Below are positions 1 through 44,380 of a stretch of 64,000 nt of DNA, piece by piece. This DNA comes from a virus. The notes below the pieces were generated by a model. It did no database searches. It saw only the letters and a program-made list of their open reading frames with translations, and was not told the DNA's origin. The position numbers and the translations under genes were made by a program. The stretch spans positions 1 to 64,000 of the IMG/VR virus record IMGVR_UViG_3300023184_003926. One strand, 5' to 3'. The first letter of the stretch is position 1. Each line of letters starts with the position of its first letter.

Positions 1-584
1 CCGTAAGCAGCCATGCCCATGGTGATGTATTCTTCGTCTAGTGGGTGTAGGCCCACACGCTGAGTAATTGCACTATAAAAGAGACCCAGGCTGTGCGGAT
101 AGTGTTGTGCCCACAGTCGTCGATATCTTGCTCGTCCTTGCTTGTCATATTCTGCTCCCCAGATTGTGATTGTATCCCACTCGCCTATGGCGTCAATTAC
201 CACCACAGTGGCACGATCATATGGTGAAGTTTGAAACCCGCTGGCAGCATGCGACAGATGATGGCCGTGGCAACTGTGTGATGTACCTGGCAAAAATCCT
301 CGGAGTTGTTGCTTTAAGATTTGTTTTGTGGTCAGCTTGTTCCACTCTATGCCTTGGCCACTGTACAACTGGCGTAGTTGTTTTTTCCAAGGTGTTTCGT
401 AATAGGCCACATGATCAATGCCGCCAACGTTACAAGTATCCCAGATTAGATCTAAGTGGATATTAGCATCGTTCTTGTGTTTGCTGTAGCGTTCACTGTG
501 GCCGGCAAACAAGATGTCGCCCTGTGTGTTGACAACTGAGATGGCAGCATCATGGTAGCCAGCACTGATACCTAGGATATTCAT
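1..584 (-). CDS. Carbamoyltransferase, NodU/TobZ/CmcH family (N-terminal part, runs off the left edge)
   Basis: I translated 194 codons by hand from the ATG at 584. The protein begins MNILGISAGYHDAAISVV, which matches the N-terminal ASKHA-fold strand of NodU/TobZ carbamoyltransferases (LGIS..YHD.A). It continues with FAGHSERYSKHKND, YYETPWKKQ and the metal-binding HHLSHAAS motif near residue 113, and ends in M-G-M-A-A-Y, like the family's (G)LAPYG. In this family the enzyme makes carbamoyl-adenylate from carbamoyl phosphate and ATP, then O-carbamoylates a sugar, nucleoside or antibiotic; the substrate here is unknown. The C-terminal catalytic half lies outside the window. The start overlaps the stop of the 33-aa gene upstream (ATGA), so translation is probably coupled. 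It is the last visible gene of the accessory operon. Confidence 0.88.
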   Translation of the reverse strand, partial: MNILGISAGYHDAAISVVNTQGDILFAGHSERYSKHKNDANIHLDLIWDTCNVGGIDHVAYYETPWKKQLRQLYSGQGIEWNKLTTKQILKQQLRGFLPGTSHSCHGHHLSHAASGFQTSPYDRATVVVIDAIGEWDTITIWGAEYDKQGRARYRRLWAQHYPHSLGLFYSAITQRVGLHPLDEEYITMGMAAY

Positions 585-682
585 TTGTAGATAAATGGAT
601 CATGTTTACGAAGTTCTTTCAACTTCTTACGATAACGAATTTCTAATGTGATTCTTGCCCAAAGTCTACGTATCCATTTCAT
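581..682 (-). CDS. Small basic 33-residue protein ending DPFIYK
   Basis: This short frame is MKWIRRLWARITLEIRYRKK followed by LKELRKHDPFIYK. ATG is at 682-680 and TGA at 583-581. Both ends are ATGA overlaps: its start overlaps the stop of the 342-aa gene, and its stop overlaps the carbamoyltransferase start. This is the same coupling used along the whole operon and is the main argument that it is translated. It is highly basic and probably one amphipathic helix. From memory, small basic proteins ending in DPFIY occur in other T4-like aquatic phages next to carbamoyltransferase genes, but I could not check. Function unknown. As a small peptide in a radical-SAM cluster it could be a modification substrate; that is speculation. 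Confidence 0.6.
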   Translation of the reverse strand: MKWIRRLWARITLEIRYRKKLKELRKHDPFIYK

Positions 683-1707
683 CGCAATCTCCAAATTTGT
701 TGGTCGACATAATCTGCATCACTCCAACGATAATTGTATGTAGTCCACTCATCACTTGTGCGAATTCTATACACATCCAAGCGAGTGGCAATTTGCTGCC
801 AGATTTGATTGTAATCTAATGTGCCAAATGTTTTTGTTAAGTTAACTTGTGCTACTTTAGGGTGGCCAATTGTGAGGCTTTGATCTTCAGGATTAAAATT
901 ATTGGCCACTAGCCATTTACGAAACTCAGTAATTTTTTTAATCTGCCACTCGTATGCACCAGGGTCTCTTGCCCACTCAATATCAAAATCTCCAGCTGCT
1001 TCAGTTTGATTACGCAAGGAACTGGTTGTTAATTCATCTACGTCACGACCTTCATCATTGAATACTTCCCAATGTGCTTTACCTACTGCTTTGTTTACTC
1101 CCACATACACTCCTCCCAGTTGTCGGTTAAGTGTTTCTATTCCAAACAGTTCGTAATCTTCATGGTCTAATGCAAAGCGTGGTGCGTTGAGCCAACACAT
1201 CAACTGACTGGGTCTGCGCCATTCGGGTGCTTGTATCACTTTGCGCATGCTCAGCACAAGGCTTTCGTATTCATGACACAACAAGTTGAGTTGGCGTATG
1301 TGCCAACGTGTTACAGTATCTGCCTTGAGCCAATAAGAACTCATATGACCTGAGTGTCCTTGAAGATCTTCAAAATACCTATGCAACCAGTTCATACGTT
1401 CATGGTCAACATCTAAATTATCTTGTATTGTGTTTTCTACTGTGAAATGATCTCTTATTTCATATCCTAAATTGGCTGCATTGATTACACCAATACTGGC
1501 ATTGATTTGATTGATAATGTATTCAGCATTTCTTTCGCTCTCAGTCCAGCCCAACCAACAATAGTTTTTCTCCAAATGCAAATTATTTCGTATGATAACA
1601 TTTAATGCAGTAAGCCATTTACGGCTGAGACTGTTGTCCTCTACGTCAATAAACAACTTAAGAGTATCAGTTTTGCCGCGTAAGTCTATTTCAATTCTGT
1701 CAAGCAA
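679..1707 (-). CDS. Conserved phage protein of unknown function (342 aa)
   Basis: A complete 342-residue protein beginning MLDRIEIDLRGKTDTLKLFI. I do not recognise a catalytic family. It is rich in Trp, Tyr and charged residues, has no evident signal peptide or membrane segment, and has only two cysteines (in NYCWLG and LLCHEY), so it is not an iron-sulfur enzyme. The C-terminal part contains a DIEWARDPGAYEWQIKKI segment and ends in a Trp/Asp-rich stretch. The start overlaps the end of the preceding radical-SAM gene by 8 bases, and the stop overlaps the next start. Its tight embedding suggests it works with the radical-SAM enzymes, perhaps as a partner or substrate-binding protein; this is inference from position only. 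Confidence 0.75.
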   Translation of the reverse strand: MLDRIEIDLRGKTDTLKLFIDVEDNSLSRKWLTALNVIIRNNLHLEKNYCWLGWTESERNAEYIINQINASIGVINAANLGYEIRDHFTVENTIQDNLDVDHERMNWLHRYFEDLQGHSGHMSSYWLKADTVTRWHIRQLNLLCHEYESLVLSMRKVIQAPEWRRPSQLMCWLNAPRFALDHEDYELFGIETLNRQLGGVYVGVNKAVGKAHWEVFNDEGRDVDELTTSSLRNQTEAAGDFDIEWARDPGAYEWQIKKITEFRKWLVANNFNPEDQSLTIGHPKVAQVNLTKTFGTLDYNQIWQQIATRLDVYRIRTSDEWTTYNYRWSDADYVDQQIWRLR

Positions 1708-2977
1708 TGTTGTTCCACCATTCTAGCACCGCAGGACGAGCAGCAAGTATTTCTGTCATTGTGATCTTCTGTGTGCGTATGCTTTCTAATTGTAACACAC
1801 GATTCCGACCTTTTGCAAGACCTGCACGATATTGATCAGGCCATTGTTCTTCAAATGTGGGACGGGTTTTTAGTTGTACCAGAACATCACGCAATGCCCC
1901 ATCCACCTGCGGAACAAGTTCATCAATCCACGGATCCAGCACGGTTCTGGGCAATGCTAGTGGGCTCATTACTATATCTGGTGAAAATGCAAACATTACT
2001 TTAGCAAGGACGTCGACTCCGTATGCTTGTGCAAGTTGTCTAATACGTGTAACTTCGAACATTCCTGGCAGAGTGAGCGTAAAGTCAATTCGTACTTGAC
2101 GTCTGTGACGCCGGACCGCAAGTGCTTTACCAAAATTATCAAGCCAGCGATCATACTCGAGACCTGTTCTAATGTATTCTCCAATTGGGCCTGTACCGTC
2201 GAGACTTGCACATATCTGCCAAGCCCTAATCCTGCTAAGAATATCGCTGAATAGATTAACCCCTCGATAATCCACTCTGGATAGATTTGTGTTGTATCTA
2301 GCATATACCTTTGGTCCGTCCCCTAATTCAACTATGCGTTTCATGTAACGCCAATGTTGTTCGTACATCAAGGGTTCGCCACCTACCCAGTATACTTCTT
2401 CAACACGATGCTGTTCTACTGCGTCTGCAAACTCTGCCTCAATCTGGCTGTCTTGAAATGCACTGATGTTCTTGCGAACTTCAGGCTGCATCCAGGCATT
2501 CTTGGGATTGCTCCAGTCCGTCATATTGTGTTGACGTTGCTCTGTTTCCCATGCACTGCTCAGCATATCACCGCACATACGACATTTGAAATTGCACAAG
2601 TTTGAGAATCTATAATCCCAACTAACAGGTCGCATTGTGGTACGGCCTGCTGTGTCTGTGGTTTCCCAGATGTCAGGATACTTATGCTTGAACAACTGCC
2701 AAAAATATGAGCGGTAAACATCTGTGTTCAACAGTTTATCATTGCATACTTCACACTCAGGCAGTGTTTCACCTGCCATCATTCTACTACGCACACTCAT
2801 CATGTGTGGCGAATTCCAATGTTCATCAAGTGTAATAGGCATGTACTTGCCGGTGCCTGCTGCGGTGTCTATGTATTGCTCAAAATTTTGTGCAGGTTCT
2901 CTTGACGCACAACACATGCGTCGTTCTGTTTGTGGACTCAAGTAGGTATGCACCCAAGGTGCCAGGCACAAGCTCAT
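1700..2977 (-). CDS. Radical SAM enzyme with N-terminal twitch-type domain (copy A)
   Basis: The 425-aa protein carries the radical-SAM triad C128-x3-C132-x2-C135 in NLCNFKCRMCG and the SAM-binding GGEP at 199-202. Before it lies a cysteine domain with C4, C22-C23 and C75-x2-C78, the auxiliary-cluster arrangement of the 'N-terminal twitch' radical-SAM family. Such enzymes cleave SAM to a 5'-deoxyadenosyl radical and use the extra cluster for substrate binding or electron transfer; no phage member I know has an assigned substrate. It is last of the five radical-SAM genes in the operon order. It overlaps the next radical-SAM gene upstream by 4 bases and the 342-aa gene downstream by 8. Confidence 0.88.
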   Translation of the reverse strand: MSLCLAPWVHTYLSPQTERRMCCASREPAQNFEQYIDTAAGTGKYMPITLDEHWNSPHMMSVRSRMMAGETLPECEVCNDKLLNTDVYRSYFWQLFKHKYPDIWETTDTAGRTTMRPVSWDYRFSNLCNFKCRMCGDMLSSAWETEQRQHNMTDWSNPKNAWMQPEVRKNISAFQDSQIEAEFADAVEQHRVEEVYWVGGEPLMYEQHWRYMKRIVELGDGPKVYARYNTNLSRVDYRGVNLFSDILSRIRAWQICASLDGTGPIGEYIRTGLEYDRWLDNFGKALAVRRHRRQVRIDFTLTLPGMFEVTRIRQLAQAYGVDVLAKVMFAFSPDIVMSPLALPRTVLDPWIDELVPQVDGALRDVLVQLKTRPTFEEQWPDQYRAGLAKGRNRVLQLESIRTQKITMTEILAARPAVLEWWNNIA

Positions 2978-4179
2978 TGGTAATCAATCAGGTCAGAAAA
3001 TTCAGGAGCAACATCTCGCATGTTTTGATTGCGTTTTTGATCTAGATCACGTATTTTCATGCGCAACATAAATCCATCTGTGCTGGCCCCAGTGTTCATA
3101 AAATCTACAATACGATCAAACTCCGCACGATACTGTGGCGGCACATCTGATGAACGTAAATGTTCTGTAATTGCAGCTTTGGCCGTGTCTGGCAATGTGG
3201 CAATACTGAAGTACCAAGCATCATGCATCATGTTCCAGTATACAAAATCAAACCGTTGCAGTGCCACCCATTGGGCCAGTTGATCAATATAGCGCACATT
3301 GAATACGTTCACAGTGCTACAGCATTGTAATTGCAAGTTGGGCATGGACTCTTGCAAGTATTGGAAACTTGTGATGTTGTCTAGTACCGCCGCCCAGTCT
3401 GCATTGGTGCGTTGATATTCAAATCTAGCCCCTATATCATCAATACTAAATGCAATTTCTACAGTTTTAAAATGTCTCCAAATTGCTTCTCCTCTAGCAG
3501 GATAATGTGTGCCATTAGTGTTGTAGTGTATTTCAACCTGGTGTGCGATACCACGGGCCACAATGCCTTGCAACATATCAAAGTGTTCGTCGATCATGAA
3601 CGGTTCGCCACCAGTGAATTCAATGTAACGAATGTCTGTCAGCACACTGTCAATCTGCTGCCAGAACTGTGCGTTCTCTCTGGGCCAAGCGCCGGCACGT
3701 AGCATTTGATATGCATGACTTGACTTTTGTTGCTCACGTGGTAACTGATTGATTTCTTCTGTGGCAAACTGACTGCTGCTCCATGATCCGCAGATGCGAC
3801 ATTTCAAATTGCAAATGTTTCCCAGTTTCAAATCCAAGAACATCAAGGGCTTGGCATCTGCTGTCCATTCTGTATCTGTTATACTGTGCTTGAGTCTGTC
3901 CAAGGTGTGCATGCGTTTGCTTGTACGGCCACCACGTTCTTCATTCCAACACTTGCGACATGTCTGGGGTCGTTCACCAGCAAGAAATTGCTCACGTAAT
4001 CCACGCATGTGATTTGAGTTTTGTATGTCTGCAAAGTTGGCTGTGCTTAATTCAAATTTGTTACCAGTGTCATCTAATATTTCGTCATCAGCTAAACAAC
4101 AAGGGCGCACTGTACCTATTGGTGAGGCCTCAATGCTGATCCAAGGTAACACACAGAATTTGTCGTGTGGTATATTCAT
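2974..4179 (-). CDS. Radical SAM enzyme with N-terminal twitch-type domain (copy B)
   Basis: A 401-aa paralogue of copies A and C. Auxiliary cysteines: C9 in FCVLPWISIEASP, C27-C28 in VRPCC, and C74-x2-C77 in CRKCWNEE. Radical-SAM triad: C123-x3-C127-x2-C130 (NICNLKCRICGS). FTGGEPFM is the SAM-binding glycine motif. The xPxGxVxPCC pattern is a typical SPASM/twitch signature, but it sits ahead of the radical-SAM barrel rather than after it. Start and stop each overlap neighbouring radical-SAM genes by 4 bases, so copies A, B and C form a continuous coupled block. Substrate unknown. Confidence 0.9.
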   Translation of the reverse strand: MNIPHDKFCVLPWISIEASPIGTVRPCCLADDEILDDTGNKFELSTANFADIQNSNHMRGLREQFLAGERPQTCRKCWNEERGGRTSKRMHTLDRLKHSITDTEWTADAKPLMFLDLKLGNICNLKCRICGSWSSSQFATEEINQLPREQQKSSHAYQMLRAGAWPRENAQFWQQIDSVLTDIRYIEFTGGEPFMIDEHFDMLQGIVARGIAHQVEIHYNTNGTHYPARGEAIWRHFKTVEIAFSIDDIGARFEYQRTNADWAAVLDNITSFQYLQESMPNLQLQCCSTVNVFNVRYIDQLAQWVALQRFDFVYWNMMHDAWYFSIATLPDTAKAAITEHLRSSDVPPQYRAEFDRIVDFMNTGASTDGFMLRMKIRDLDQKRNQNMRDVAPEFSDLIDYQ

Positions 4180-5438
4180 TTTAATGCTGCCAATTCTGGA
4201 ATTACATCCATGATATTTTCTCGTCGCATGTCATCTAACTCGTGTGTTTTGCGCCAGAATGTGTCCAACAAATGTGTATTGTCCGTAGCCATCATAAACT
4301 TGATAGCACTTTCAAATCCCACTGTGGCTCGTTGCAGTGGGTCCTGATTTTTCAGCCAGTTAATATGATCAGTGAACTTTGTTAGTAATTGTTCTTTGTA
4401 TTCTGCAGGCGCGATATCTATTCTGTAATGTAGCGGATCTTGTAATATGTTTACATTTAAATCTTGCGCATGAATCAATCCACGTTCTACCCAGTCTCTA
4501 TGAAAGTTTGGCAGGTGCCATGCGTTCATTATACTCAAGGTGGGTGAGATGTAAAAGTCTACTCGGGGGCATATTGCTAACATTTCTTGGCGATTGCGTT
4601 CTACCACTGCCCAGTCTGTGCCTTTGCGAATGTATTCTGCACGTGACCCCGAGTCATCAAGACTGGCACCTACTGCTACACTGTCAAATTGCTTCCAATA
4701 TTCAAATACGCTTTTGCCTTTAAGTTCAGTATGCGTAAAGTTTGTGTTGTAAATCAATCGCACATCAAAGCGTTTTCTTTTGACTAATTCTGCTAGGATG
4801 TTGTAATGTTCTTCCATCAGCAATGGCTCGCCGCCAGCAAAGTAAATTTGCTCTACATAATCCAAGTGTGGTTCTAGTTGTTGCCACATGTCCGTCTCAG
4901 TACGTCCTGCGTAGTTCAACACAGTGTTGCGATCCTTCCAATCGCCGCCGGCAAGTCGGGCTTGGTCTTGATACCATTGGCTGCTGAATATGTGTCCGCA
5001 ACTGCGGCATTTTAAATTGCACAAGTTTGAAAAACGAATATCCCAATAAGTCATTTCAAAAGGATTCTCGTCTAATTTCTTAATCTGATGGCCGTGGTGC
5101 TTGTTGGCCGATTTGCGTCCACTAAAAAAACCATTGGCTTCTTGTTCATAGCAACGTCCACAGGCAGCATTTGGTATTTCTGTCAACATGTCCTGGCGTA
5201 GTTGTTGCATGGGTGCATCAGTCCATATTTCTTCTAGAGTATTCTTGCGGCAATTACCAACTTGACCTACTGCCATTTCAGCATGGCAGCAAGGATATGC
5301 TTCTCCTGTGGGATAGGCATGCAAATGTATCCAAGGATATATGCAAAACGTTTTTGAGTCTGTCAGTAAAAACTGCTCACGCTCAGTTAACTCTGTTGGA
5401 TGCACTAAGTCTGTACTGTTATACTTGTATTGAGTCAT
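4176..5438 (-). CDS. Radical SAM enzyme with N-terminal twitch-type domain (copy C)
   Basis: 420 aa, with an N-terminal extension of about 30 residues relative to copy B. Auxiliary cysteines are C32 (FCIYPWIHLHAYPTGEAYPCC), C50-C51, and C93-x2-C96 (CGRCYEQE); C63 is an extra cysteine. The radical-SAM motif is C140-x3-C144-x2-C147 in RFSNLCNLKCRSCG, followed by IYFAGGEPLLMEEHY. The RFSNLCN.KCR segment is shared with copy A, so A and C are closest in this stretch. The start overlaps the end of copy D by 20 bases. The reaction is inferred only at superfamily level. Confidence 0.9.
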   Translation of the reverse strand: MTQYKYNSTDLVHPTELTEREQFLLTDSKTFCIYPWIHLHAYPTGEAYPCCHAEMAVGQVGNCRKNTLEEIWTDAPMQQLRQDMLTEIPNAACGRCYEQEANGFFSGRKSANKHHGHQIKKLDENPFEMTYWDIRFSNLCNLKCRSCGHIFSSQWYQDQARLAGGDWKDRNTVLNYAGRTETDMWQQLEPHLDYVEQIYFAGGEPLLMEEHYNILAELVKRKRFDVRLIYNTNFTHTELKGKSVFEYWKQFDSVAVGASLDDSGSRAEYIRKGTDWAVVERNRQEMLAICPRVDFYISPTLSIMNAWHLPNFHRDWVERGLIHAQDLNVNILQDPLHYRIDIAPAEYKEQLLTKFTDHINWLKNQDPLQRATVGFESAIKFMMATDNTHLLDTFWRKTHELDDMRRENIMDVIPELAALK

Positions 5439-6762
5439 ACCATTTGCTTAATTCAGGAAAACACTTGTCAAAGTTTTTGCCACGACGTTGATCGTATTGA
5501 GTATAAAACTGTCGAAAGTCATTCAACAACTTGGGCATTTCAAATGCTTCTGAGTGCGGTGTTTTTACCACATCCAAATAATCAATTAATCGCTGTACAT
5601 GATTGATTTCATGTTCGTGTAAGCAAGGATTGTGTTGATTATGAAACAACCAGGCTTGGAGTTTTAGTCGATAACCATTGCGCAGGTCATCTGGCAACAC
5701 TAGAGCACTCTGGAAGCTGGGAAAGCGTAGGATGTTCAACGTAAAATTAATTTTATCACTTCCATATTTTTGTTTCAACGCCAACAGCATGTTCAAGTTA
5801 TCAACTAATGTGGTCAAACACAAGGCATTGATTGTGCCCATGACGTGTATCTTGTTGACAAAGTTGCCTTCCAGCAAGTACAACATGTTACCAAACCACT
5901 GATCAAAGTCTAGTCCATCTCTGATGTATTCTGCTTGTTTGAATGTGGCTTCCATTGATGTGTACACCTCCACATCGGGCAGTGTACGAATAGCTGCGCC
6001 AAACTCCATCATCTTAGGCAAGTCAATTCCCAAGTTTGAATTGATTGCTAGGCGTGTGGTACTGCGTCCTTGATTGGTTTTGAACCATTCTATCAGTTTC
6101 CAGGTATAACCCGACATCAGCGGTTCGCCGCCTGTTATTCTGAGCTCTTGCAGTGTTCTGTAGAGGTCTCGTTCCCACCAGTCAAAGAAGGCATCCACGT
6201 AAGGATTAGTCTCACCGAATTTATAAAGTTGACTGCTATCATGAGTGTGAGTAAAATGGTTCCTGCCATCGCTAACCAACCCGTTGTAGGGTCCATGCCG
6301 GCGTATATCATTGACCCAAGTGGAACTAAAAGCAGGATTGCAATAAGAACAAGCAAATTGACAAGTACGATCGAAACTGATTTCCAATGTTCTAAGATTA
6401 ACATCATCTTGGATGGGTGTGTTGACTGCTTCATGTAGTGCCTTTATGGGATAAATTTTTGATTTGTACACACGGTCGCTTACTGCGTTGGTGTCCATGT
6501 CTTCAATCTTCCAGCAGTATTCACAGCCTGCAGGACGTTCACCAGCCAACATCTTGCGCCGGTCTTCTTTCTTTTGATCAGAATTGTGCAGCAGCCTAGA
6601 GTTGTTATTGACTTTATCAGCGTCAATCAAATGAGCTGGCGGGTGATGGCAACTTGTGGTCTGCCCACTTCCTAACCAAATGGTAGCATTGTACCATTTT
6701 GCTGCACAAAAACTTGAGGACACCGGGTCCAACACCTGTTGTTTAAATTCTAAATCATTCAT
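5419..6762 (-). CDS. Radical SAM enzyme, variant N-terminal cluster domain (copy D)
   Basis: 447 aa. The radical-SAM triad is C134-x3-C138-x2-C141 (TCQFACSYCNPAFSSTW), with RITGGEPLMSGYTW as the SAM motif. The N-terminal domain differs from A-C: C19 (SFCAAKW), a single C38 in SCHHPP in place of Cys-Cys, and C80-x2-C83 (CEYCWKIED). Copy E shares this SC.HPP form, so D and E make a second subfamily in which a histidine may take the place of one cluster ligand. The gene lies between copy C and a glycosyltransferase-like gene, overlapping both, so co-translation is likely. Confidence 0.88.
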   Translation of the reverse strand: MNDLEFKQQVLDPVSSSFCAAKWYNATIWLGSGQTTSCHHPPAHLIDADKVNNNSRLLHNSDQKKEDRRKMLAGERPAGCEYCWKIEDMDTNAVSDRVYKSKIYPIKALHEAVNTPIQDDVNLRTLEISFDRTCQFACSYCNPAFSSTWVNDIRRHGPYNGLVSDGRNHFTHTHDSSQLYKFGETNPYVDAFFDWWERDLYRTLQELRITGGEPLMSGYTWKLIEWFKTNQGRSTTRLAINSNLGIDLPKMMEFGAAIRTLPDVEVYTSMEATFKQAEYIRDGLDFDQWFGNMLYLLEGNFVNKIHVMGTINALCLTTLVDNLNMLLALKQKYGSDKINFTLNILRFPSFQSALVLPDDLRNGYRLKLQAWLFHNQHNPCLHEHEINHVQRLIDYLDVVKTPHSEAFEMPKLLNDFRQFYTQYDQRRGKNFDKCFPELSKWYDSIQV

Positions 6763-7864
6763 TTATATATTGGGCTAACCGGTTGGGCAGTTCTGCACGT
6801 TCTCGAGCATTGTGTTCTCGAAGTTGTTGATAGTTGTATTTACAAATGGGTTCAGCAGCCTCCAAGAAACTAGCAGCACCATTATAACATATATCTGCCA
6901 CAACGTCAACGATGCGATCGGCACGATCTTTTGCATTATCTATATGATCAAAACTTTCGTCTATCAAATGAGCGAATGTTTGAAATCCTGCTCGGTGCAA
7001 ATCTTTGTAGTAATCACGATTGGCCGCTGCCACAAATGGATGACACATGATCATGGGCTTCCAGATCTTCTCTGTACGGAATGTGTAAGGATAATCAAAT
7101 ATGGTTTCGGTCACAACACTAAAGTAGGTGTCAATATACGGAGCAGGATTGACTTCGGCATCGCCCCAGGTGTTGCCAAACAAATGATGTTTTATAAATC
7201 CTGTTGGTACATTGTCCATGTTAGGCAAAGCACGATCAATTTCGTATTGTGGGGGCAACAATCGCACAGGTTCAGACTCACTGGGTCGCAATATGCTGCT
7301 CCAAGAAAAGTCCACCTCGCCTTGCAAGTTGGTCCATAATGCACGATCCAGTAACCCACGTGATCGAAATGCATCTATCAAATACTTGCGGTGTGGCCTT
7401 AGTCGCCCATTTAAAAACAAAAAGTCATAAGGTTTATTGACCTTGCGATACACTTGCGGGCACGATTCGTGCGCACGTAAGTTCTCTAAATATTCTACAA
7501 TATTTGAAAAATAACAATCTGTCTTGCAATAACGCCAAGGTATTTCTAAATTACCTGATGCTAATAATCCAATTCTTCCATCTTGTACAAAATTTGTAAT
7601 TACCAATCTACGCAGTTGTAATAATATAGTTTCACTACCTTCTGCAGGATTGGAAAATATAATATGACCTGGGTGTTTTGTGGCCCATTCAGTTACGGCC
7701 TGCCAATTTTCTTTGAGAACAACTCTACCTATGACATAAATGGCATTGGGATCTAGTTCCTTGGGCCACTGCCAAAAACTGTCATCAGCATAAGGCTTGA
7801 GCAAGTCCCATACTTCGGCCCATTCATCCACAATAATTCTACGATTGCCTAGCATGATACGCAC
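6755..7864 (-). CDS. Glycosyltransferase-like protein (369 aa)
   Basis: The C-terminal third reads FRTEKIWKPMIMCHPFVAAA, then a YxxxLhxxGFxTF block and IDESFDHIDN. This resembles the nucleotide-sugar-binding end of fucosyltransferase-like (GT10-like) and other GT-B enzymes (TEK.wkP...g.PFI), a pattern I associate with viral and marine phage proteins. The middle contains FLFLNGRLRPHRKYLIDAF, also typical of this group. The N-terminal 100 residues are not recognised. No signal peptide or membrane helix is seen. It sits between the two SC.HPP-type radical-SAM genes and overlaps both (8 and 26 bases), which suggests one pathway. The fold is a pattern-based guess; the donor and acceptor are unknown. 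Confidence 0.55.
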   Translation of the reverse strand: MRIMLGNRRIIVDEWAEVWDLLKPYADDSFWQWPKELDPNAIYVIGRVVLKENWQAVTEWATKHPGHIIFSNPAEGSETILLQLRRLVITNFVQDGRIGLLASGNLEIPWRYCKTDCYFSNIVEYLENLRAHESCPQVYRKVNKPYDFLFLNGRLRPHRKYLIDAFRSRGLLDRALWTNLQGEVDFSWSSILRPSESEPVRLLPPQYEIDRALPNMDNVPTGFIKHHLFGNTWGDAEVNPAPYIDTYFSVVTETIFDYPYTFRTEKIWKPMIMCHPFVAAANRDYYKDLHRAGFQTFAHLIDESFDHIDNAKDRADRIVDVVADICYNGAASFLEAAEPICKYNYQQLREHNARERAELPNRLAQYINE

Positions 7865-9239
7865 ACTCCTCCCACCATGATTTCATCTCCGGAAATGTCT
7901 TTACGAAGTCTGTACCGCGTCTGCGGTCGTGTTCACTAAAGAAACGATAAAAGTCTGCTTGAGCACGTGAGTGATCGTTCAGTTGTGTAGACCGCATCCA
8001 GGCAATGTCACGATCCAGTCGGTGCAGTTCATAGTCCTTGAATCCTTTGAATGGTTCCGCTTCTGTTTCAATCTGTCGTATCATCCAAGCCCACAACCAT
8101 TCCAGTTTTTCGGCATAACTCTCTGGCAGGATTTGTAAGCTCTGCCAGGCAGGTTCACGTAGTACAGGTGTGTCAAACCACACACGTTGATAGTCTGTAC
8201 TGTATACCTTGCGCAACCCCAATATACCAGCAAACAGTTTGTCTAAACTGGTCACACTCAAGTTGTTCACTGTGACAATAAATGTAAGACTTGAGTAATT
8301 GGGCACTTCTGTAAGGAACTGATTTACTCGATCCCATAACAAGTCAAAGTCCAGGCCATGACGCATGTATTCTGCTTGCTCGCCCCAACCATCCAGGCTC
8401 ACGTACTGCATGAAATGTTCAATACGCCCATCACAAATCTGTTTTACATAACTCAAATATTTCTGCCATGACTTTTCATCTACTGAGAAGTTGCTTGTGA
8501 CATTTAAATGCAGTCGAGGACTAGGGTTCTCCAGCACATAATCAAACACCCGATAGGTATTTTTGTCCAGCAGTGGTTCACCACCAGTCATACGAAAATG
8601 TTCTAGGTGCGGATACAGTGTGGGCCACCAGTCCCAGAAAGCGTCAACATAAGGATTTGATTCTCGAACGGGAATGGGCTGTCGTTGGCCCACAAAATGC
8701 TCAGGAGCATTATGAGGACTGCTAGTAGGATAAGCACCATGCCTTGTAACTTCGTCCTGCCAAGAGCTTGAAAACTGAGGGCTACAATAACTACACTTGA
8801 GATTACAAGCATGGTTGAAATTAACTTCAACATAACTGGGGATAACATCTTCGTCTCCTGTTGAATTTTTTATTGATTCAAAGTCAACTGCGGCCCAGGG
8901 TTCACCTGAACGGTAGTGACGGTCACTTAGTTTGCCCGCATCTTCCATGTTCCAACAATATTGACATTCGCTAGGACGTTGGCCACTCAGCATAAGTTTA
9001 CGTTGTTGTTTTTTATATTTGGTGTTGTGCAATGCAGAAACATCTATTTTGATCTCTGCAGGATCAATGGCGTGCAATGGAGGATGATAGCATGAGTTGT
9101 TCATGCCTGTGGTCAAGTGCAGACTGACCTGCTTCCACTTGGCCAAACACAATGCCGGACCCAACTTATCATGCATTTGTTCAGCAGAGGTCAAGAACTT
9201 GCTTTTAGTCCCAACAGACTCATCGCCTTTGTTCATCAC
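7839..9239 (-). CDS. Radical SAM enzyme, variant N-terminal cluster domain (copy E)
   Basis: 466 aa. Radical-SAM triad C145-x3-C149-x2-C152 (HACNLKCSYCSPQFSSSW), SAM motif RMTGGEPLLDKNTY, and a SLDGWG segment at the end of a barrel strand. The N-terminal domain has C31 (LCLAKWK), C50 in SCYHPP, and C92-x2-C95 (CQYCWNMED), matching copy D and not A-C. The C-terminus (FFSEHDRRRGTDFVKTFPEM) is also close to that of D (YTQYDQRRGKNFDKCFPEL), so D and E probably arose by duplication. The start overlaps the preceding GT-like gene by 4 bases. Confidence 0.88.
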   Translation of the reverse strand: MMNKGDESVGTKSKFLTSAEQMHDKLGPALCLAKWKQVSLHLTTGMNNSCYHPPLHAIDPAEIKIDVSALHNTKYKKQQRKLMLSGQRPSECQYCWNMEDAGKLSDRHYRSGEPWAAVDFESIKNSTGDEDVIPSYVEVNFNHACNLKCSYCSPQFSSSWQDEVTRHGAYPTSSPHNAPEHFVGQRQPIPVRESNPYVDAFWDWWPTLYPHLEHFRMTGGEPLLDKNTYRVFDYVLENPSPRLHLNVTSNFSVDEKSWQKYLSYVKQICDGRIEHFMQYVSLDGWGEQAEYMRHGLDFDLLWDRVNQFLTEVPNYSSLTFIVTVNNLSVTSLDKLFAGILGLRKVYSTDYQRVWFDTPVLREPAWQSLQILPESYAEKLEWLWAWMIRQIETEAEPFKGFKDYELHRLDRDIAWMRSTQLNDHSRAQADFYRFFSEHDRRRGTDFVKTFPEMKSWWEECAYHARQS

Positions 9240-10162
9240 CAGCCTTCTTGTTGGCGTATGACATCAATCTCTCGTGTCATTATGCCACGATTGTGCCAGT
9301 TTGAACGATAATGTTGTTTGAAGAATCGACTTTGTTCACCTTCAAAGATGGCCATGGGCAAGTCCAATTGCCCGTACAAGTCATCCGCCACTCGGCCACC
9401 TAGCAGTCTGGGGTCTGAATCTTTTACTGAATCCCAGATTTCAGCCAATGCATCAAAGTCTTGCACCTGTCGGTGATCCCAGTTTGTGAGCATGGTCATG
9501 TATGTGCCCTGTCTGGCACCGGCCATGGCCCACTGTCCATTGTTGACGTCTGCACCAATGTTGTGCCATATGGTCAAGTGATCCAAGTTGCGTTGATGCA
9601 CTTGCTGTTGAAATTCTTCCACTGTGGGTTTAGCACCTCGGCTCAGGCACATCTTTACACCTTCGCGGAAGCCGGCACGCCAGGCTTGAAATGCTGATGC
9701 ATTAGGATATGTGGTTGAGTAGCAGTCGTACATGGACCAATACAAGGGATCAAAACAAAACTCCACTTCGGTTTCTGTACGCCCGTCTGTAGCTTCGTGT
9801 GTGCGCATGTTAAACACAAACTCTTTGGTCCATGAACTCAAGCCGCCGTTGCCATACATCAGGCCATTGATGTGATTTCTTGCTCGCCAACGAAACACTG
9901 CTTGTTCCCAGTCTGGTGTGTCAAATGTCAATGTTTGATTGAAGAACACTGCATCAGGAATGTTGTCACCGTCAATCAAGATAAAACGTTCAGTAGTACT
10001 GGCTGTGGCAGCGGCTTTGTGTGCCGCGTCTGATCCTTTTATGCCATCTACTCGTGTGGCCCACGGTACCATGTTCTTGATCTTTACCCAAAACTCTTCT
10101 TTTTCAGGTTCGTCATAACTCAAGTACACACAGTCCAAGTCTGCAATGTCAATTTGATTCAT
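9236..10162 (-). CDS. GT-A-type glycosyltransferase-like protein
   Basis: About 308 aa starting MNQIDIADLDCVYLSYDEPE. A Rossmann-like start is followed by TERFILIDGDNIPDAVFF, where D-G-D matches the metal- and nucleotide-sugar-binding DxD of GT-A enzymes. I chose the ATG at 10162 over an in-frame ATG at 10204. It is preceded by GGAG 11 bases upstream and overlaps the previous gene by only 14 bases, while the longer form would add an unconserved-looking leader. Later segments are rich in Trp and Phe, as in acceptor-binding regions. The donor sugar is unknown. It could also be a degenerate GT-fold protein without activity. Confidence 0.6.
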   Translation of the reverse strand: MNQIDIADLDCVYLSYDEPEKEEFWVKIKNMVPWATRVDGIKGSDAAHKAAATASTTERFILIDGDNIPDAVFFNQTLTFDTPDWEQAVFRWRARNHINGLMYGNGGLSSWTKEFVFNMRTHEATDGRTETEVEFCFDPLYWSMYDCYSTTYPNASAFQAWRAGFREGVKMCLSRGAKPTVEEFQQQVHQRNLDHLTIWHNIGADVNNGQWAMAGARQGTYMTMLTNWDHRQVQDFDALAEIWDSVKDSDPRLLGGRVADDLYGQLDLPMAIFEGEQSRFFKQHYRSNWHNRGIMTREIDVIRQQEGW

Positions 10163-10484
10163 ATGTTTGTTTGCTCCATTTGGTATGAGGTTGGTCCTCG
10201 GCAACGATTACAGCGACATTGTCAGGATGACAAGGGGATCCAGAGTTACCGGGGACCAATTTTGTTGTGGTTGCCCACGTTACTTGCACTAGTCGTCCGT
10301 TGCGTACACGCACATTGCTGGCACCACGGTGATATTCTTCCGGTGTTATCTCAATATATGTACCAAGTTCGTGTGCCATGCTGTAGAATAATGGGAGACC
10401 CTCGGCATTGTGGTATAATCTAAAGAATGGTGCTGGTGGCAATGGCGCATCTTGCAATAGTTTTTGTAAATCTTCAGGTGTCAT
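10149..10484 (-). CDS. Conserved small phage protein (111 aa)
   Basis: The start is taken at the ATG at 10484 (MTPEDLQKLLQD), which overlaps the preceding stop as ATGA. A longer in-frame reading to 10568 lies wholly inside the upstream gene and looks spurious. The protein contains FFRLYHNAEGLPLFYSMAHE, GTYIEITPEEYHRGASNVRV and a basic C-terminus. The pattern LYY.e.G.PLFYSM...G.YIE...e.y is one I associate with uncharacterised proteins of T4-like aquatic phages. No enzymatic motif or membrane segment is visible. Its function is unknown. Confidence 0.72.
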   Translation of the reverse strand: MTPEDLQKLLQDAPLPPAPFFRLYHNAEGLPLFYSMAHELGTYIEITPEEYHRGASNVRVRNGRLVQVTWATTTKLVPGNSGSPCHPDNVAVIVAEDQPHTKWSKQTYESN

Positions 10485-11248
10485 GCTCGCCATTCTTTTA
10501 CATTGTAATGAAATGCGCCGGTCTGTGCTACTGTTTGTATGCGCAGTCGTAAATCCTGATATTCCCAAACAAGCTCTTTGGCCCAGGCTTCTGTGGCAGT
10601 TCCTGCTGTGTGTCTTTTCATGTGTACAATCTTGGGATATGTACTGAATGGCATTGTCACGCGATCTCGGCCCATGATTTCAGCAGCCATGGCATACACT
10701 AAATCAGTTGACGGAATTTCATCTGGAAACTTCAACAGTTTTTTAAACTCTGTCCAGTTGGCAAATATCTGTGCCACCCACCCAAAAAACTCCTTGGCAG
10801 TTGCACTACGCCGCCAGTATGTGATGGCATTGTATACATCTGGTAAGTTGTTAACATCAAACACTCGGCGGTAATGTCTTGCTGTGCTCACGCGGTCTTG
10901 CCAATCTCTACAGCCTGTACTGATTACAATATCTCTATGCCTAAACTGTGCCCACCAATGGTCAATTGGGCTCACAATCAACATGTCTGCTTCTAGTTTG
11001 ATGGTTTCACGAAATGGTGTCAGGGCAAATAGTTGTGCATCGTTGGCAAATGGATTTGCCTCAGGCACAATCTGTCTGTGATGATCATACAAGGGGTCAG
11101 TGTAAGGGCTGTCTGTGACCAAACAGATTTTTGCACTTGGATCCCAGTAGCGTATGGTCTTGGCTAGAGTTCTAGCACAGTCCAAGTAATCAACCGTGTC
11201 GCTGTTGACTGCAACAATTAAGTAACCTTGTTCATCCGTTGGCTGCAA
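10481..11248 (-). CDS. Glycosyltransferase-like protein of the nucleotide-diphospho-sugar transferase fold (255 aa)
   Basis: The N-terminus reads GYLIVAVNSDTVDYLDCART, then KTIRYWDPSAKICLVTDSPY. This is the beta-strand/helix pattern of nucleotide-diphospho-sugar transferases that begin with 'vi.a.n...Y...a...a.sl........v.lvtd'. A metal-site-like E-A-D occurs in KLEADMLIV, where family members have DaD. The start codon is TTG at 11248, preceded by a near-perfect Shine-Dalgarno GGAGGTGA, so initiation there is well supported although it overlaps the previous gene. It resembles the next gene upstream, and the two are probably paralogues. The sugar donor and target are unknown. Confidence 0.6.
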   Translation of the reverse strand: MQPTDEQGYLIVAVNSDTVDYLDCARTLAKTIRYWDPSAKICLVTDSPYTDPLYDHHRQIVPEANPFANDAQLFALTPFRETIKLEADMLIVSPIDHWWAQFRHRDIVISTGCRDWQDRVSTARHYRRVFDVNNLPDVYNAITYWRRSATAKEFFGWVAQIFANWTEFKKLLKFPDEIPSTDLVYAMAAEIMGRDRVTMPFSTYPKIVHMKRHTAGTATEAWAKELVWEYQDLRLRIQTVAQTGAFHYNVKEWRA

Positions 11249-12065
11249 CTATCACCTCCAGGTGTTTCTTGCACATGGCATGGAAGTCCATGCCTTTCCA
11301 ACTCATGGTTTTTAATCTACCTTCTGTGTTGGTGTATTCAATTTCATAATGATCCTGTTCGACACAAGTCAATTTGTGTTCAGGCATGATATTAAACATA
11401 GGTTTTGATATAGCATGCACTGATTGTTCAGCGCCTGCCACTAGGCCCAGGGCAATACTCAGGGCATAGTCATTGCGATAGTTGCTTTGGTGAATGCCGT
11501 ACAAGTCTCGATAGTGTTGCCAGTTGTTGCGTATCATTTGCATTGAATCAAATATGTATTGGCTGATGTTGCCACGACGGAACATCATCACAGTGGCCCA
11601 CCACATGGGCATATTATACGCACCAAATGTGTCAAGATTGGTCATGCTGCTGGGCTCAAAAGCATCCTTAAAGGCCGCAAATTGTTGCGGTATTTTCAGC
11701 ACATCCAATAGTGAGTCACTGGCTATAACATAGTCAGCGTCCAACACTAGTGTCTGATCAAACGGAGATAACTCGTATGCATTGATGCGTCCAGCATTGT
11801 GCCAGGTTATTGTTTGTTTGTAATCTGCAAAATATCTTGCACCGCCAGTGTCTGGCGCAGTTACAATGATGTGCTCAAAACTGTGCTCAGCGGCTGCTTC
11901 AGGATTGTCTGTGATCACAGCCACAGGCAAGTTCAAATGGCGACGAATGTTCTTTGCCGACCATGCTGCCATGGCAATGTAATCTGTTGCCTCATTGTTG
12001 AATGCAAAGATTAACGCACCTTGTGTCAACGTCGTTGGTTTAGTTCGTCCCATTCCACTTTCCAT
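11232..12065 (-). CDS. Glycosyltransferase-like protein with DxD motif (277 aa)
   Basis: After a short leader the protein reads GALIFAFNNEATDYIAMAAW, SAKNIRRHLNLPVAVITD and, further on, FDQTLVLDADYVIAS. The DAD motif is the expected divalent-metal and nucleotide-sugar site of a GT-A fold. The TDYIAMA...A..I...L..P..vitD pattern is repeated in the next gene (VDYLDCAR...I...DP..KICLVTD), so the pair look like tandem paralogues. The annotated ATG at 12065 overlaps the upstream gene by 40 bases; the ATG at 12053 (MGRTKP) has a better GGA spacing and may be the true start. The acceptor is unknown. Confidence 0.62.
   Translation of the reverse strand: MESGMGRTKPTTLTQGALIFAFNNEATDYIAMAAWSAKNIRRHLNLPVAVITDNPEAAAEHSFEHIIVTAPDTGGARYFADYKQTITWHNAGRINAYELSPFDQTLVLDADYVIASDSLLDVLKIPQQFAAFKDAFEPSSMTNLDTFGAYNMPMWWATVMMFRRGNISQYIFDSMQMIRNNWQHYRDLYGIHQSNYRNDYALSIALGLVAGAEQSVHAISKPMFNIMPEHKLTCVEQDHYEIEYTNTEGRLKTMSWKGMDFHAMCKKHLEVIVAANG
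11252..11259 (-). promoter_or_regulatory. Strong Shine-Dalgarno GGAGGTGA in front of a TTG start
   Basis: On the minus strand GGAGGTGA is followed, after three more bases, by TTG at 11248-11246. It lies inside the last codons of the upstream glycosyltransferase-like gene. It settles the start of the 255-aa gene, which has no suitable ATG nearby. Confidence 0.7.
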
Positions 12066-12334
12066 GAGTTCATTTGTTCTTGCCAGCGTTCATGTGCTTG
12101 AGCAAACAAGTCTGTTATAACAATTTTAACAGGGGTTTCATACAAGTCTAGTATCACAACATCTTTGTCCTGTGCGCAGGCCAATAACACAGTCAGTAAT
12201 TCTGGCCCAGCACGCCACATTCCACCAGCATGGGCAAACACCATCTTTGCTTGATATTTTTCTTTAAGCACTCGACGTGCGGCTGCATGATCAAATCGGG
12301 CTCGTGCATGAGCAACCAAGGCATCAGTATTCAT
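12026..12334 (-). CDS. Conserved small phage protein (102 aa)
   Basis: The sequence has a helical N-terminus (MNTDALVAHARARFDHAAA), then KYQAKMVFAHAGGMWRAGPE and DVVILDLYETPVKI, and a Trp- and charge-rich C-terminal helix. The blocks AKm.FAHaGGMW and ViLDLYe.PVk are ones I associate with a small unassigned protein in T4-like aquatic phages, usually near tail genes. It is the first gene after the terminator-like hairpin and overlaps the start of the glycosyltransferase-like gene. No promoter motif is obvious in the 50 bases upstream, so transcription may be read-through. Function unknown. Confidence 0.7.
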   Translation of the reverse strand: MNTDALVAHARARFDHAAARRVLKEKYQAKMVFAHAGGMWRAGPELLTVLLACAQDKDVVILDLYETPVKIVITDLFAQAHERWQEQMNSWKVEWDELNQRR

Positions 12335-12388: not shown

Positions 12389-13378
12389 TTAAGCAGAGAC
12401 CGAAGCAACCACTGTGGGAGTTCCCCAGGAAATAGTGGTAAGATTGGTTGATTCTGGTGGGAAATAAGTTACAATAGTGCAGGGTGCTGTACCCGGGGTT
12501 GCACCAGTTGGTGCTGTACCGCCGGTGATTGGGTCAGTACCACCCACAGGAGGTGTGTTGGTATCATTTGCACTCCAAGTTGTGGTGATTACTAATTGGG
12601 TTCCAGTTCCAGCTTTGGCAAGAGAAGTTTCGATATAATTAGTGGTGTAAGGTGCAGTGTCAGCAAACTGTTTGTACACAACGGTAGCCGCAGCAGCATC
12701 TACAAGAGCATCCCATCCGGTGGCAGTTGATAATGTAGTAGGGGTACCTGTACCTCCAATTTTTGTAGTGCCAGTGTAGGCCACAGCAGCTATAGTATGA
12801 CTAGTGGCCAATCCAGAAACATATATTACACCACACAATGTGCCAGCCAAGTCATTCCATTCTGCATCACCTGTTGCACCTGTTGATGTTTTAGATGTTT
12901 GAATTTTGATTGTTCCGCCAGCGTTGAAAAAATAATTGGCGGCTGCGGCACTGGTCCAGGTCACTGTGTTGGTAAACACCATGGTCCAAGCTGCACCTCC
13001 CGAAGTGCCTCGTCCTGCGGTGTAAGAGTTTGTGCCAGACCAACCAGTAAATTGAGTACCTTGGGCGTAAGCATTATAACGATTGGTAAAGACACTGCCA
13101 ATGTCAGTGTTCACAGCACTCAGCACAGCAATGGTTGTTCCTGCTGTGGGAGCAGATCTTGCAGTGAGAGTGGTGTTGGTATGTGTTCCAAGCGAAGCAA
13201 GAGTGTTGACCAAACTGGCCCATTGTGTGGCAGTAACCGTGTCGGTTGTAGCCACAGTGGCCAGTGCTGGTTGGCCATACGCAGTGTTCAAAGTTGCATT
13301 GACGTTGGCCGCCACTGTGGTACTTACAAAACCATTGTAATCTACCGCTTGAATTGTTCCACCGCTTGAATATGTCAT
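12389..13378 (-). CDS. Virion structural protein (329 aa), Ala/Thr/Gly-rich
   Basis: Starts MTYSSGGTIQAVDYNGFVST and is strongly enriched in Thr, Ala, Ser and Gly with alternating hydrophobic residues, the look of beta-rich phage appendage proteins. Blocks such as QWASLVNTLASLGTH, AEWNDLAGTLCGVIYV and KIGGTGTPTTL match, by recollection, an uncharacterised structural protein found beside tail fibre genes in T4-like aquatic phages. A GGAA ribosome site lies upstream of the ATG. It is last in the virion operon and directly followed by a terminator-like hairpin. A tail-fibre or capsid-decoration role is possible; the sequence does not decide. Confidence 0.65.
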   Translation of the reverse strand: MTYSSGGTIQAVDYNGFVSTTVAANVNATLNTAYGQPALATVATTDTVTATQWASLVNTLASLGTHTNTTLTARSAPTAGTTIAVLSAVNTDIGSVFTNRYNAYAQGTQFTGWSGTNSYTAGRGTSGGAAWTMVFTNTVTWTSAAAANYFFNAGGTIKIQTSKTSTGATGDAEWNDLAGTLCGVIYVSGLATSHTIAAVAYTGTTKIGGTGTPTTLSTATGWDALVDAAAATVVYKQFADTAPYTTNYIETSLAKAGTGTQLVITTTWSANDTNTPPVGGTDPITGGTAPTGATPGTAPCTIVTYFPPESTNLTTISWGTPTVVASVSA

Positions 13379-13391
13379 TTCTGTTTCCTAA

Positions 13392-15407
13392 TTATTTCAC
13401 GCTTACTGTTGCTTCGATTGTGCCCAGGTCACTAGAATCTTTGTTTTCTAATGCACGACCAATCACATTAAACATGGTAGCTTCTCCAGATTGCGCTGCT
13501 CTAGCAACACCGTTGCCTGCTGAAACTAATCTATCACCTTTTTGCACTTGGCCAATTACTTTTACTGGCACACGTCCAGCTATGGCCACTGGGGGATGTG
13601 TATTGTCATCGCCTGCACCGCTGTTCATCATGTAAGCAGCCGACGTACTTATCACTCCAAATACTGCATCGCTTAGATCGTGTTTTGATTGGGTAATTTC
13701 GTGTGTACCACCTAGATCCACAACTGTGCCAGGTTCCAATACCTCATCGGCTGCGTAGCGTTCTGCCAAGTCAGCGTATAATGCTGTGGTTGCTGTGGCG
13801 AAGATTGTGTTGAATGCGGCACCACTTGCGCCAATATTGCCTGCACCAGTGGTACCAGTGTGTGTGATACTGTTGACACTTAGAACGCCAGTTGTACCAG
13901 TTGTAGTCATAGTAGCAGCACTGATTACCCCGGCTGTAATAATGTTACCACCAGTTACGTTACCACTTGCGCTGACTGTTGTTGAATTGACCCCAGCAAC
14001 ATAGGCTTGATTAAACCAGCCGCCAGTTACTGCACCGATGTTACCAACAATGTTGGATCCACCTTTTTCAATACCAGTAACATTGGCATTACCAGAAAAG
14101 TATGCTGAACTGGTAGTCAGTACCAGTACGTTGCTGGTGCCAGCAACGTTGAAGTTGATGTTGCCGTCTGTGGCACCAATGTTGCCTTCTGTTGTACCAT
14201 TAACAAATTTAGTTACGCTAACACCCAAGCTCAAGCCTGTGAGTTGTGATCCGTTGCCCAAGAAATATGTACCAAACACGTTGGCTTGTGATGTGACGTT
14301 GCCTGTAGCTGAAATTAATCCTACTGTACGCAGGTTGCCACCTTGCACATTGGCTGTGGCACTTAATGTTGCACCTTGCACCAGGGCAGCAGTGATAATA
14401 TTACCACCAGTTACGTTGGCTGTGGCAGATACCAATCCGCCTGTGAGCAAATTGCCACCTGTGGTATTACCTGTTACGTTTAGTGTGGTACCTATTGTGG
14501 CAGCATTGGCTATGGCAAATGTACCATTACTACCTAATGCTCTTGCAACGTTGTAAAGGGTGCCAGCAACGTTGGCTTGAATGATCAAGTTACCACCTGA
14601 GATTGCACTCAAGACATTGGCATCAGTGCTAGATGTGTTAACGTTGTACACGTTGCTAACACCCACAAACATACCTGTGTTATTTTGAACACGTAAGATA
14701 CCTGTGGTAGAAGTATTGGTATCACTGCGCATGAATTGTGAACTATCCAGGCTGTCCAACAACTGTGAATTTGTAGCTGAGCCAGCAAACACTGCACCTG
14801 ACACAGACAAGCTCAGTGTCAATCCTGGATAGATTGTGGGGAACGCTGCTTGCAATGATGCTTGTGGGGTGAAGCTGGCACCATCAAAAACTATGCCCAC
14901 ACGCACATTGTTCACATACAAGCTGGTGATGTATTTTGTGGCACCAACGTTGTTTAAAATTGTTTCGGGAATAGCACCACTTGTGCCTTGTGCGCTGGTA
15001 TAACCAGGCCCCACAACCAGCCAAGCAGCGCCAGTATATACTTTTAATTGTTGATTTGAACTGTCAAACCACAAGTCACCTGCAACCACAGTTGTTGTGG
15101 GTGCGCTGGCCGATGAGGTTGATCCGGTGATGGTTTTAAACCCTGTGCCGCTATAGACTTTCATCAAATTGTTGGTTTTATCCCACCAAAGCTGCCCAGT
15201 CAATGGCGATGACGGTGCAACAGTATTTGATCCACTTTCCAGCAAGTGAACAAAGTTTTCGTCCAAAAACTCACCGTATCCAGCATAGTTTTTACCCACC
15301 AAAGTGACCAAGGGTACACTGGGTGTGCCGCTTGCAATTTGATTGATTGTGCCATCAGCAATGGTAGCAAAAACTGTGCCGTCTGTTAGATTGATTGTAT
15401 ATGCCAT
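13392..15407 (-). CDS. Tail fibre-like protein with tandem GN repeats (671 aa)
   Basis: The N-terminal region (MAYTINLTDGTVFATIADGT, then PLVGKNY.GYGEFLDENFVHLLE and GQLWWDKTNNLMKVYSG) is typical of fibre-attachment parts in T4-like phages. Residues about 290-530 hold many short imperfect repeats of the type NVTGGNIITAGLVSAT, consistent with a fibrous beta structure. A C-terminal domain starts at about 545 with DLAERYAADEVLEPGTVVDL and continues with VFGVISTSAAYMMNS and VKVIGQVQKGDRLVS. I associate this with the folding or distal end of phage fibres. It has its own TATAAATA late promoter. Likely a receptor-binding or connecting fibre; the receptor is unknown. Confidence 0.78.
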   Translation of the reverse strand: MAYTINLTDGTVFATIADGTINQIASGTPSVPLVTLVGKNYAGYGEFLDENFVHLLESGSNTVAPSSPLTGQLWWDKTNNLMKVYSGTGFKTITGSTSSASAPTTTVVAGDLWFDSSNQQLKVYTGAAWLVVGPGYTSAQGTSGAIPETILNNVGATKYITSLYVNNVRVGIVFDGASFTPQASLQAAFPTIYPGLTLSLSVSGAVFAGSATNSQLLDSLDSSQFMRSDTNTSTTGILRVQNNTGMFVGVSNVYNVNTSSTDANVLSAISGGNLIIQANVAGTLYNVARALGSNGTFAIANAATIGTTLNVTGNTTGGNLLTGGLVSATANVTGGNIITAALVQGATLSATANVQGGNLRTVGLISATGNVTSQANVFGTYFLGNGSQLTGLSLGVSVTKFVNGTTEGNIGATDGNINFNVAGTSNVLVLTTSSAYFSGNANVTGIEKGGSNIVGNIGAVTGGWFNQAYVAGVNSTTVSASGNVTGGNIITAGVISAATMTTTGTTGVLSVNSITHTGTTGAGNIGASGAAFNTIFATATTALYADLAERYAADEVLEPGTVVDLGGTHEITQSKHDLSDAVFGVISTSAAYMMNSGAGDDNTHPPVAIAGRVPVKVIGQVQKGDRLVSAGNGVARAAQSGEATMFNVIGRALENKDSSDLGTIEATVSVK

Positions 15408-15428: not shown

Positions 15429-15436
15429 TATTTATA
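15429..15436 (-). promoter_or_regulatory. Late promoter TATAAATA
   Basis: Exact T4 late-promoter octamer on the minus strand, 21 bases ahead of the ATG of the 671-aa fibre gene. It overlaps the end of the upstream coding region. It would be used by RNA polymerase carrying the phage gp55 sigma factor. Confidence 0.75.
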
Positions 15437-44328: not shown

Positions 44329-44356
44329 TTGACAAATGTTGTAAATGTGCTACAAT
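44329..44356 (+). promoter_or_regulatory. sigma70-type promoter for gp55 (TTGACA, 16-bp spacer, TACAAT)
   Basis: TTGACA at 44329-44334 and TACAAT at 44351-44356, 16 bases apart, in the divergent intergenic gap. A start site about 7 bases downstream leaves room for GGAG before the gp55 ATG at 44381. This is a host-type (early) promoter, in contrast with the NATAAATA motifs before virion genes. Confidence 0.75.
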
Positions 44357-44380
44357 AAGTACATATCTGGAGAACCGTGC

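Follow-up and report, generated by a model that had tools for sequence, protein, structure and literature searches.

A tightly packed run of minus-strand genes, lying next to tail genes in a giant phage, combines five N-terminal-twitch radical S-adenosylmethionine (radical-SAM) enzymes (R1-R5) with glycosyltransferase (GT)-like proteins and a carbamoyltransferase, and is a core module of its phage lineage, inherited as one set. It spans positions 1-12334 of the window, that is, of the whole stretch analysed, which comprises the first 64,000 bases of the 66,847-base IMG/VR record IMGVR_UViG_3300023184_003926. Its 13 genes (A, B, C, C2, D, R1, E, R2, R3, R4, R5, F and G) are referred to below as the cassette, and the phages that carry it are widespread giant (jumbo) lake phages. 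The reading that we favour, with moderate confidence, is that this core module is expressed late and serves to attach a glycan, tailored by radical-SAM enzymes, to a tail protein of the virion.

The gene order T1-T0-A-B-C-C2-D-R1-E-R2-R3-R4-R5-F-G, in which T1 and T0 belong to the tail region, recurs in ~107 non-redundant contig groups, obtained by collapsing the loci that scans with R3, R1 and E had detected among viral contigs. In 68 of the groups a single locus includes both A and F; none of these lacks R1, R2, R5, C or D, while R3 and R4 occur in 67 of them, B occurs in 66 and E in 61. Because these loci had been picked by cassette genes, a control was anchored on the tail gene T2 instead, using its best 80 relatives (at least 84% identical, so that the control speaks for this lineage and not for all jumbo phages). 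In the 59 T2-anchored loci with at least 7.5 kb of downstream sequence, to which the presence counts were restricted, T1, T0, A, B, C, C2 and D are found without exception, and R1 in 57. A scan for the radical-SAM motif alone, reaching relatives down to ~35% identity, finds B, C and D together in 46 of 72 newly fetched loci, and tail genes inside the fetched flank in 36; in the remotest relatives the R genes are less strictly ordered, and F, G or E is sometimes missing. All tested genes are under purifying selection (median ratio of nonsynonymous to synonymous substitution rates 0.06-0.12), and this, together with recurrence of the order in ~107 groups, argues that the gene set is not due to chance. 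The initial annotation had proposed an accessory operon with mostly overlapping starts and stops. The overlaps are seen in the window and in relatives alike, and the neighbourhood survey shows no independent scatter of the genes, in the ~107 groups as in the T2-anchored control; "accessory", on the other hand, has to be replaced by "core", given the 59 of 59 T2-anchored loci.

R1 (7839-9239), R2 (5419-6762), R3 (4176-5438), R4 (2974-4179) and R5 (1700-2977; all minus strand) adjoin or overlap, and match the NCBIfam model NF033640 (N_Twi_rSAM) at 331, 292, 389, 337 and 272 bits, respectively, i.e. 100 to 220 bits above its curated cutoff of 170. The ligands of their clusters are intact: the CX3CX2C motif and four auxiliary cysteines, which stand N-terminal of it in all five enzymes, are 100% conserved in 37-46 diverse representatives of each. 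(Loss of catalytic cysteines in relatives had been named at the outset as an argument against a joint pathway; none of the seven has been lost in these representatives.) In a phylogenetic tree each enzyme forms a clade of its own, spanning 12-16 phages with support of 0.965-1.0; R1-R5 are therefore ancient paralogues with distinct, retained roles. Thus the five twitch enzymes that the initial annotation had placed within 12 kb are confirmed. Of the seven that it had counted in the window, six belong to the family, the sixth being R6 (47010-48485, plus strand, outside the cassette; 297 bits); the seventh, at 51321-52418, is a different kind of radical-SAM protein, SPASM-like at its C-terminus and scoring 27.7 bits against NF033640, under the cutoff. 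Large jumbo contigs (16, G001-G016) hold 8-21 N_Twi matches each, many of them outside the tail cassette. A sequence search of the structure database with R3 returned nothing useful. R6 and a methyltransferase-like gene (together 46303-48485) are located between SbcD-like (gp47) and SbcC-like (gp46) genes, while the SPASM-like-ended enzyme sits in a second small cluster (50564-52999) with an uncharacterised protein and a short-chain dehydrogenase.

Tail genes, all on the minus strand, precede the cassette. T2 (15432-16040) encodes a virion structural protein (phrog_11259) that is 43-53% identical to proteins of Rak2-like phages, and its relative CBB_230 has been detected in virions by mass spectrometry (PMC5259590). 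T1 (13392-15407) is tail-fibre-like, with PHROG virion and tail fibre matches. T0 (12389-13378), which separates T1 from the cassette, has no family match and immediately precedes A in nearly all groups; it is rich in threonine (22.8% in the window, 20.9% as the family median) and is therefore a reasonable, if putative, candidate for a glycan acceptor. N-glycosylation of the tail proteins was considered as well and rejected, N-glycosylation-like sequons occurring in about the expected number. With 32-35% identity to its counterparts in Atu_ph07, Phosso, GAP32, 121Q and their relatives, the baseplate wedge protein assigns the phage to a Rak2-related, T4-like jumbo lineage; related contigs reach 364 kb. 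The window also encodes, at 16209-31781, a single tail-region protein of 5190 residues, in whose place Atu_ph07 has gp180, annotated as a virion structural protein, and has at 53033-53461 a weak match, under the cutoff, to TIGR01453 (group I intron endonuclease). Marine contigs binned into bacterial or archaeal metagenome-assembled genomes have the tail genes followed by A-B-C-D and radical-SAM genes. The contigs with this tail module (L228-L235) sit in genomes assigned to Rhodobacteraceae, Neomarinimicrobiota, Pacearchaeota and others, and look misbinned and of phage origin.

Just upstream of T1, at 15429-15436 on the minus strand, lies TATAAATA, the late promoter element of T4-like phages; it is the only conserved exact element of this kind. 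The lone match in the window is not significant, so that only conservation of the element counts. An exact TATAAATA stands beside the start of T1 in 54 of 70 contig groups and beside none of the 13 cassette genes; it is found at most 200 nt after T2 in 69 of the 80 T2-anchored loci, and its matches number 115 on the coding strand versus 7 on the other (counted over partly redundant loci). Sites resembling σ70 promoters occur at chance level. The phage encodes its own gp55-like late σ factor (44345-45277). Junctions downstream of the promoter are short, with gaps of 13 nt between T1 and T0 and 55 nt between T0 and A; nearly all later ones overlap, F and G being ~94 nt apart. Promoter position and tight or overlapping junctions together point to late co-transcription of the cassette with the tail genes.

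The remaining cassette genes (all minus strand) include several GT-like ones. B (11232-12065) has a conserved LDADY motif and no Pfam match; C (10481-11248; phrog_1903) has a conserved LEADM; and D (9236-10204), among the best-conserved cassette genes (median 76%), has an invariant DGDN, one relative also matching GT2 weakly (PF00535, E 0.009, below the cutoff). By these motifs B, C and D look GT-A-like. No Pfam family of its own was matched by any GT-like gene of the window. E (6755-7864) is confidently predicted to be a glycosyltransferase of the two-Rossmann GT-B fold: its model (pLDDT 90.5) aligns over 260-300 residues with GT-B enzymes, at Z 11.0-13.2 among the structural matches listed. 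This agrees with the three or four GT-like genes of the initial annotation, and its NodU/TobZ-type carbamoyltransferase is confirmed as G (3-584; PF02543 at 72 bits, cutoff 24; HHxxHA conserved). Since the contig ends there, G holds just the N-terminal 194 residues; full-length relatives have ~490 residues, and one that was scanned matches NodU, under the equivalog cutoff. F (679-1707) is a conserved protein whose model (pLDDT 86.7) may contain a cyclophilin-like barrel with a helical insert: the best Z is 8.1, and at least 10 of the top 15 structural matches are named cyclophilins or peptidyl-prolyl isomerases, while Foldseek alone yields no match at E<=0.001. A (12026-12334), a conserved protein of 102 residues, and C2 (10149-10568; probable ATG start near 10490), small and conserved, match no family. 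Profiles of B, C, D, E and F found nothing useful among the sequences of solved structures, and simple hydropathy predicts no membrane segment in the core cassette proteins.

The structural match listed first for E is T4 β-glucosyltransferase (Z 13.2), which would suit a cassette that hypermodifies phage DNA bases with sugar in the manner of the T4 enzyme; other GT-B enzymes, a GT10 fucosyltransferase included, are tied with it within Z 1, and E has no sequence match. The unit is late and linked to the tail, and the thymidylate synthase/dCMP hydroxymethylase family (PF00303), which supplies the hydroxymethylated base for T4-type glucosylation, is found in none of the 16 jumbo contigs, which may be incomplete (controls were positive). 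On these two grounds DNA decoration, one of the options offered initially, is disfavoured and we regard it as highly implausible.

A small aminoglycoside-like metabolite as the product is likewise very improbable. Radical-SAM, GT and carbamoyltransferase genes co-occur in the cassette, joined in some relatives by an aminotransferase gene, and such combinations of enzymes resemble aminoglycoside-type pathways; no export or resistance gene was seen among the scanned neighbours, and linkage to the tail genes is invariable. The parallel with BtrN and TobZ that had been drawn from the start holds as a resemblance of enzyme classes and of sugar-tailoring logic (BtrN being a twitch dehydrogenase and TobZ, like NodU, a carbamoyltransferase), and goes no further. 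The auxiliary twitch domain of BtrN is C-terminal to the radical-SAM barrel, whereas that of R1-R5 is N-terminal; and, unlike BtrN/TobZ systems, the cassette shows no aminocyclitol pathway.

Variation between phages is confined mainly to slots after D, R3, R4 and G, where extra genes are inserted. Some are related to sugars (NAD-dependent epimerase, GDP-mannose-dehydratase-like protein, PfkB kinase, DegT aminotransferase); others specify FkbM and other methyltransferases, an AMP-binding enzyme, a GDSL protein, further radical-SAM enzymes and paralogues of E. Sugar-modifying genes in variable slots fit a diversifying glycan, and the epimerase, dehydratase-like, kinase, aminotransferase and FkbM genes strengthen the unusual-sugar theme of the initial annotation.

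Post-translational decoration of a virion tail protein could proceed as follows. Late σ-type transcription from TATAAATA before T1 would yield T1, T0 and the cassette together. Cytoplasmic glycosyltransferases (E, of GT-B type, and the GT-A-like B, C and D) would build a short glycan on a protein acceptor, probably T1 (the tail fibre) or else T0, with its many threonines, before or during tail assembly. R1-R5 would each execute one distinct C-H reaction (a dehydrogenation, epimerisation, deoxygenation or C-C step), acting either on one of the glycan's sugars or on the attachment residue; G would attach a carbamoyl group, and the enzymes of the variable slots would alter the sugar from phage to phage. 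This reading draws on the strict tail linkage in T2-anchored loci, the late promoter before T1, the tight junctions, recurrence of the order in distant contigs, the GT-B model of E, the sugar genes in the slots, the invariant cysteines and separate clades of R1-R5, and the families missing from the 16 jumbo contigs. Gene content and order, intact cluster ligands, promoter position, purifying selection and ancient paralogy are observed, whereas transcription, acceptor and all of the reactions are inferred.

The same slots suit diversification of a surface, and the principal competing proposal, which we consider rather unlikely, is that during infection the cassette alters a glycan of the host surface (O-antigen, capsule or a lipid-linked intermediate), so as to block competing phages or to stop progeny from sticking to debris. 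In pelagimyophages, the GTs and radical-SAM cassettes of the host recognition cluster have been interpreted as serving host-surface modification (PMC7029224), and so have GT clusters of jumbo phages (PMC7824862). What speaks against this for the present cassette is the late promoter that it shares with the tail fibre genes, a core that is the same across many phages instead of being swapped, and the finding that these phages have none of the carrier-lipid and flippase families tested for, although they might rely on the host's own machinery. Specifically, the initiating sugar-1-phosphate transferase (PF02397) and the Wzx flippase (PF01943) are found in 0 of the 16 jumbo contigs (which may be incomplete; controls positive), and with no membrane segment predicted in the core proteins this disfavours a self-contained lipid-linked polysaccharide pathway. 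Alteration of the virion or of the host surface had both been suggested initially; the evidence leans towards the virion.

Several considerations weigh against virion tail decoration. Linkage to the tail could arise because late or host-recognition genes accumulate in this region, and need not mean a tail substrate. Similar pelagimyophage clusters have been interpreted by their authors as modifying the host O-chain (PMC7029224). The resemblance of B, C and D to glycosyltransferases is one of motifs; T0 is no more than a putative component of the virion, where its high threonine content may have a purely structural role; and the acceptor, product and activity of the cassette are all putative.

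Cultured phages offer parallels. Searches covering 50,697 cultured-phage records give Vibrio phages K566 and K567 as the only matches to R1 and R3, and no match to D, E, A, C2 or the segment 38885-41827. In K566 (L008, 15042-26010), N_Twi radical-SAM genes are interleaved with GT8-type and GT4-like genes. Agrobacterium phage Atu_ph07 (L320, 19424-26162) and Sinorhizobium phage Phosso (L322, 18626-26369) have other radical-SAM enzymes in the same spot behind T2-T1: SPASM-type enzymes, accompanied by a cupin-like gene and a protein of ~300 residues that ends in CHSSCHASCHNSRSRR or CHTSCHASCHSSRSRR (pattern CHxSCHASCHxSRSRR) and is possibly a radical-SAM-modified virion protein. In Atu_ph07 this protein, gp170, opens the cluster of virion proteins identified by mass spectrometry, CDS 170-215 (PMC6102473), and this boundary suggests that gp170 is present in the virion; T0 has no detectable relationship to gp170. 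The SPASM domain of the rhizobial phage enzymes is C-terminal, those of Atu_ph07 are not matched by the R1-R5 profiles, and no GT-like gene is recognised beside them. Lack of a match to the R1-R5 profiles makes the Atu_ph07 parallel an analogy only, which also counts against virion decoration. The two parallels, that of the rhizobial phages and that of K566, favour a virion protein as the substrate, or at least a partnership of radical-SAM enzymes with glycosyltransferases.

The rhizobial loci, in which radical-SAM/SPASM enzymes adjoin a protein with a Cys/His/Ser-rich C-terminus in the same tail locus, also speak for the idea that R1-R5 act directly on protein (T0, T1 or A), in the manner of enzymes for ribosomally synthesised and post-translationally modified peptides, leaving the GTs only to finish the modified residues. 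A cyclophilin-like fold of F would be in keeping with this. We nevertheless judge it improbable: alignments of T0, A and C2 show no obvious short precursor and no conserved Cys-rich tail (the survey of relatives covered open reading frames of at least 70 residues), and it is sugar genes that occupy the variable slots.

Comparison with described systems separates what is familiar from what is new. Earlier work had already described phage GT clusters that neighbour tail fibre genes and include radical-SAM cassettes: the host recognition cluster of pelagimyophages contains tail fibre genes, glycosyltransferases and radical-SAM gene cassettes (PMC7029224). That cluster is hypervariable, whereas here 13 genes are conserved in order and only the slots vary. 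Clusters of jumbo phages (PMC7824862) and of the cyanophage Synechococcus phage ACG-2014f likewise combine glycosyltransferases with sugar-nucleotide enzymes, the latter near a tail fibre gene and with a remote relative of C, but, unlike the cassette, have no radical-SAM array; the text of the 2021 jumbo-phage survey does not mention radical SAM (PMC7824862). Virions of mycobacteriophages have glycans on capsid and tail tube proteins (Freeman 2023, cited in PMC12619734), and that citing account mentions no radical-SAM enzymes; the acceptor of the present cassette is putative by comparison. Moraphages, with four core glycosyltransferases (PMC12619734), were considered and no link to this lineage was found. 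The NF033640 model names no function. In the openly searchable literature we found no description of a function for N_Twi_rSAM proteins, of a fixed five-copy array in a late tail operon or of 8-21 copies per contig, and a literature search found no paper on twitch radical-SAM proteins in phages. Five fixed orthologues in one late tail operon are the cassette's own feature, and the novelty lies in a fixed core, linked to a late promoter and shared across a widespread lineage, that unites five radical-SAM orthologues with GTs and a carbamoyltransferase. Tentatively, we propose that a glycan on tail proteins is built or tailored, or its attachment residue modified, by radical-SAM enzymes: a conserved virion decoration, dependent on radical chemistry and on five enzymes, that is core to a widespread jumbo lineage and has its counterpart in a separate radical-SAM set in the same tail locus of cultured rhizobial phages.

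These lake phages keep five ancient versions of the N_Twi_rSAM enzyme in fixed order next to their tail fibres, with up to 21 family members per contig. The idea can be put to a direct test in cultured phages, namely Vibrio phages K566 and K567 and, where the parallel set is concerned, Atu_ph07 and Phosso. Virion decoration of this kind, if true, would represent a new chemistry for phage adsorption and evasion of defence, and the lineage would offer unusual enzymes that modify sugars or peptides.

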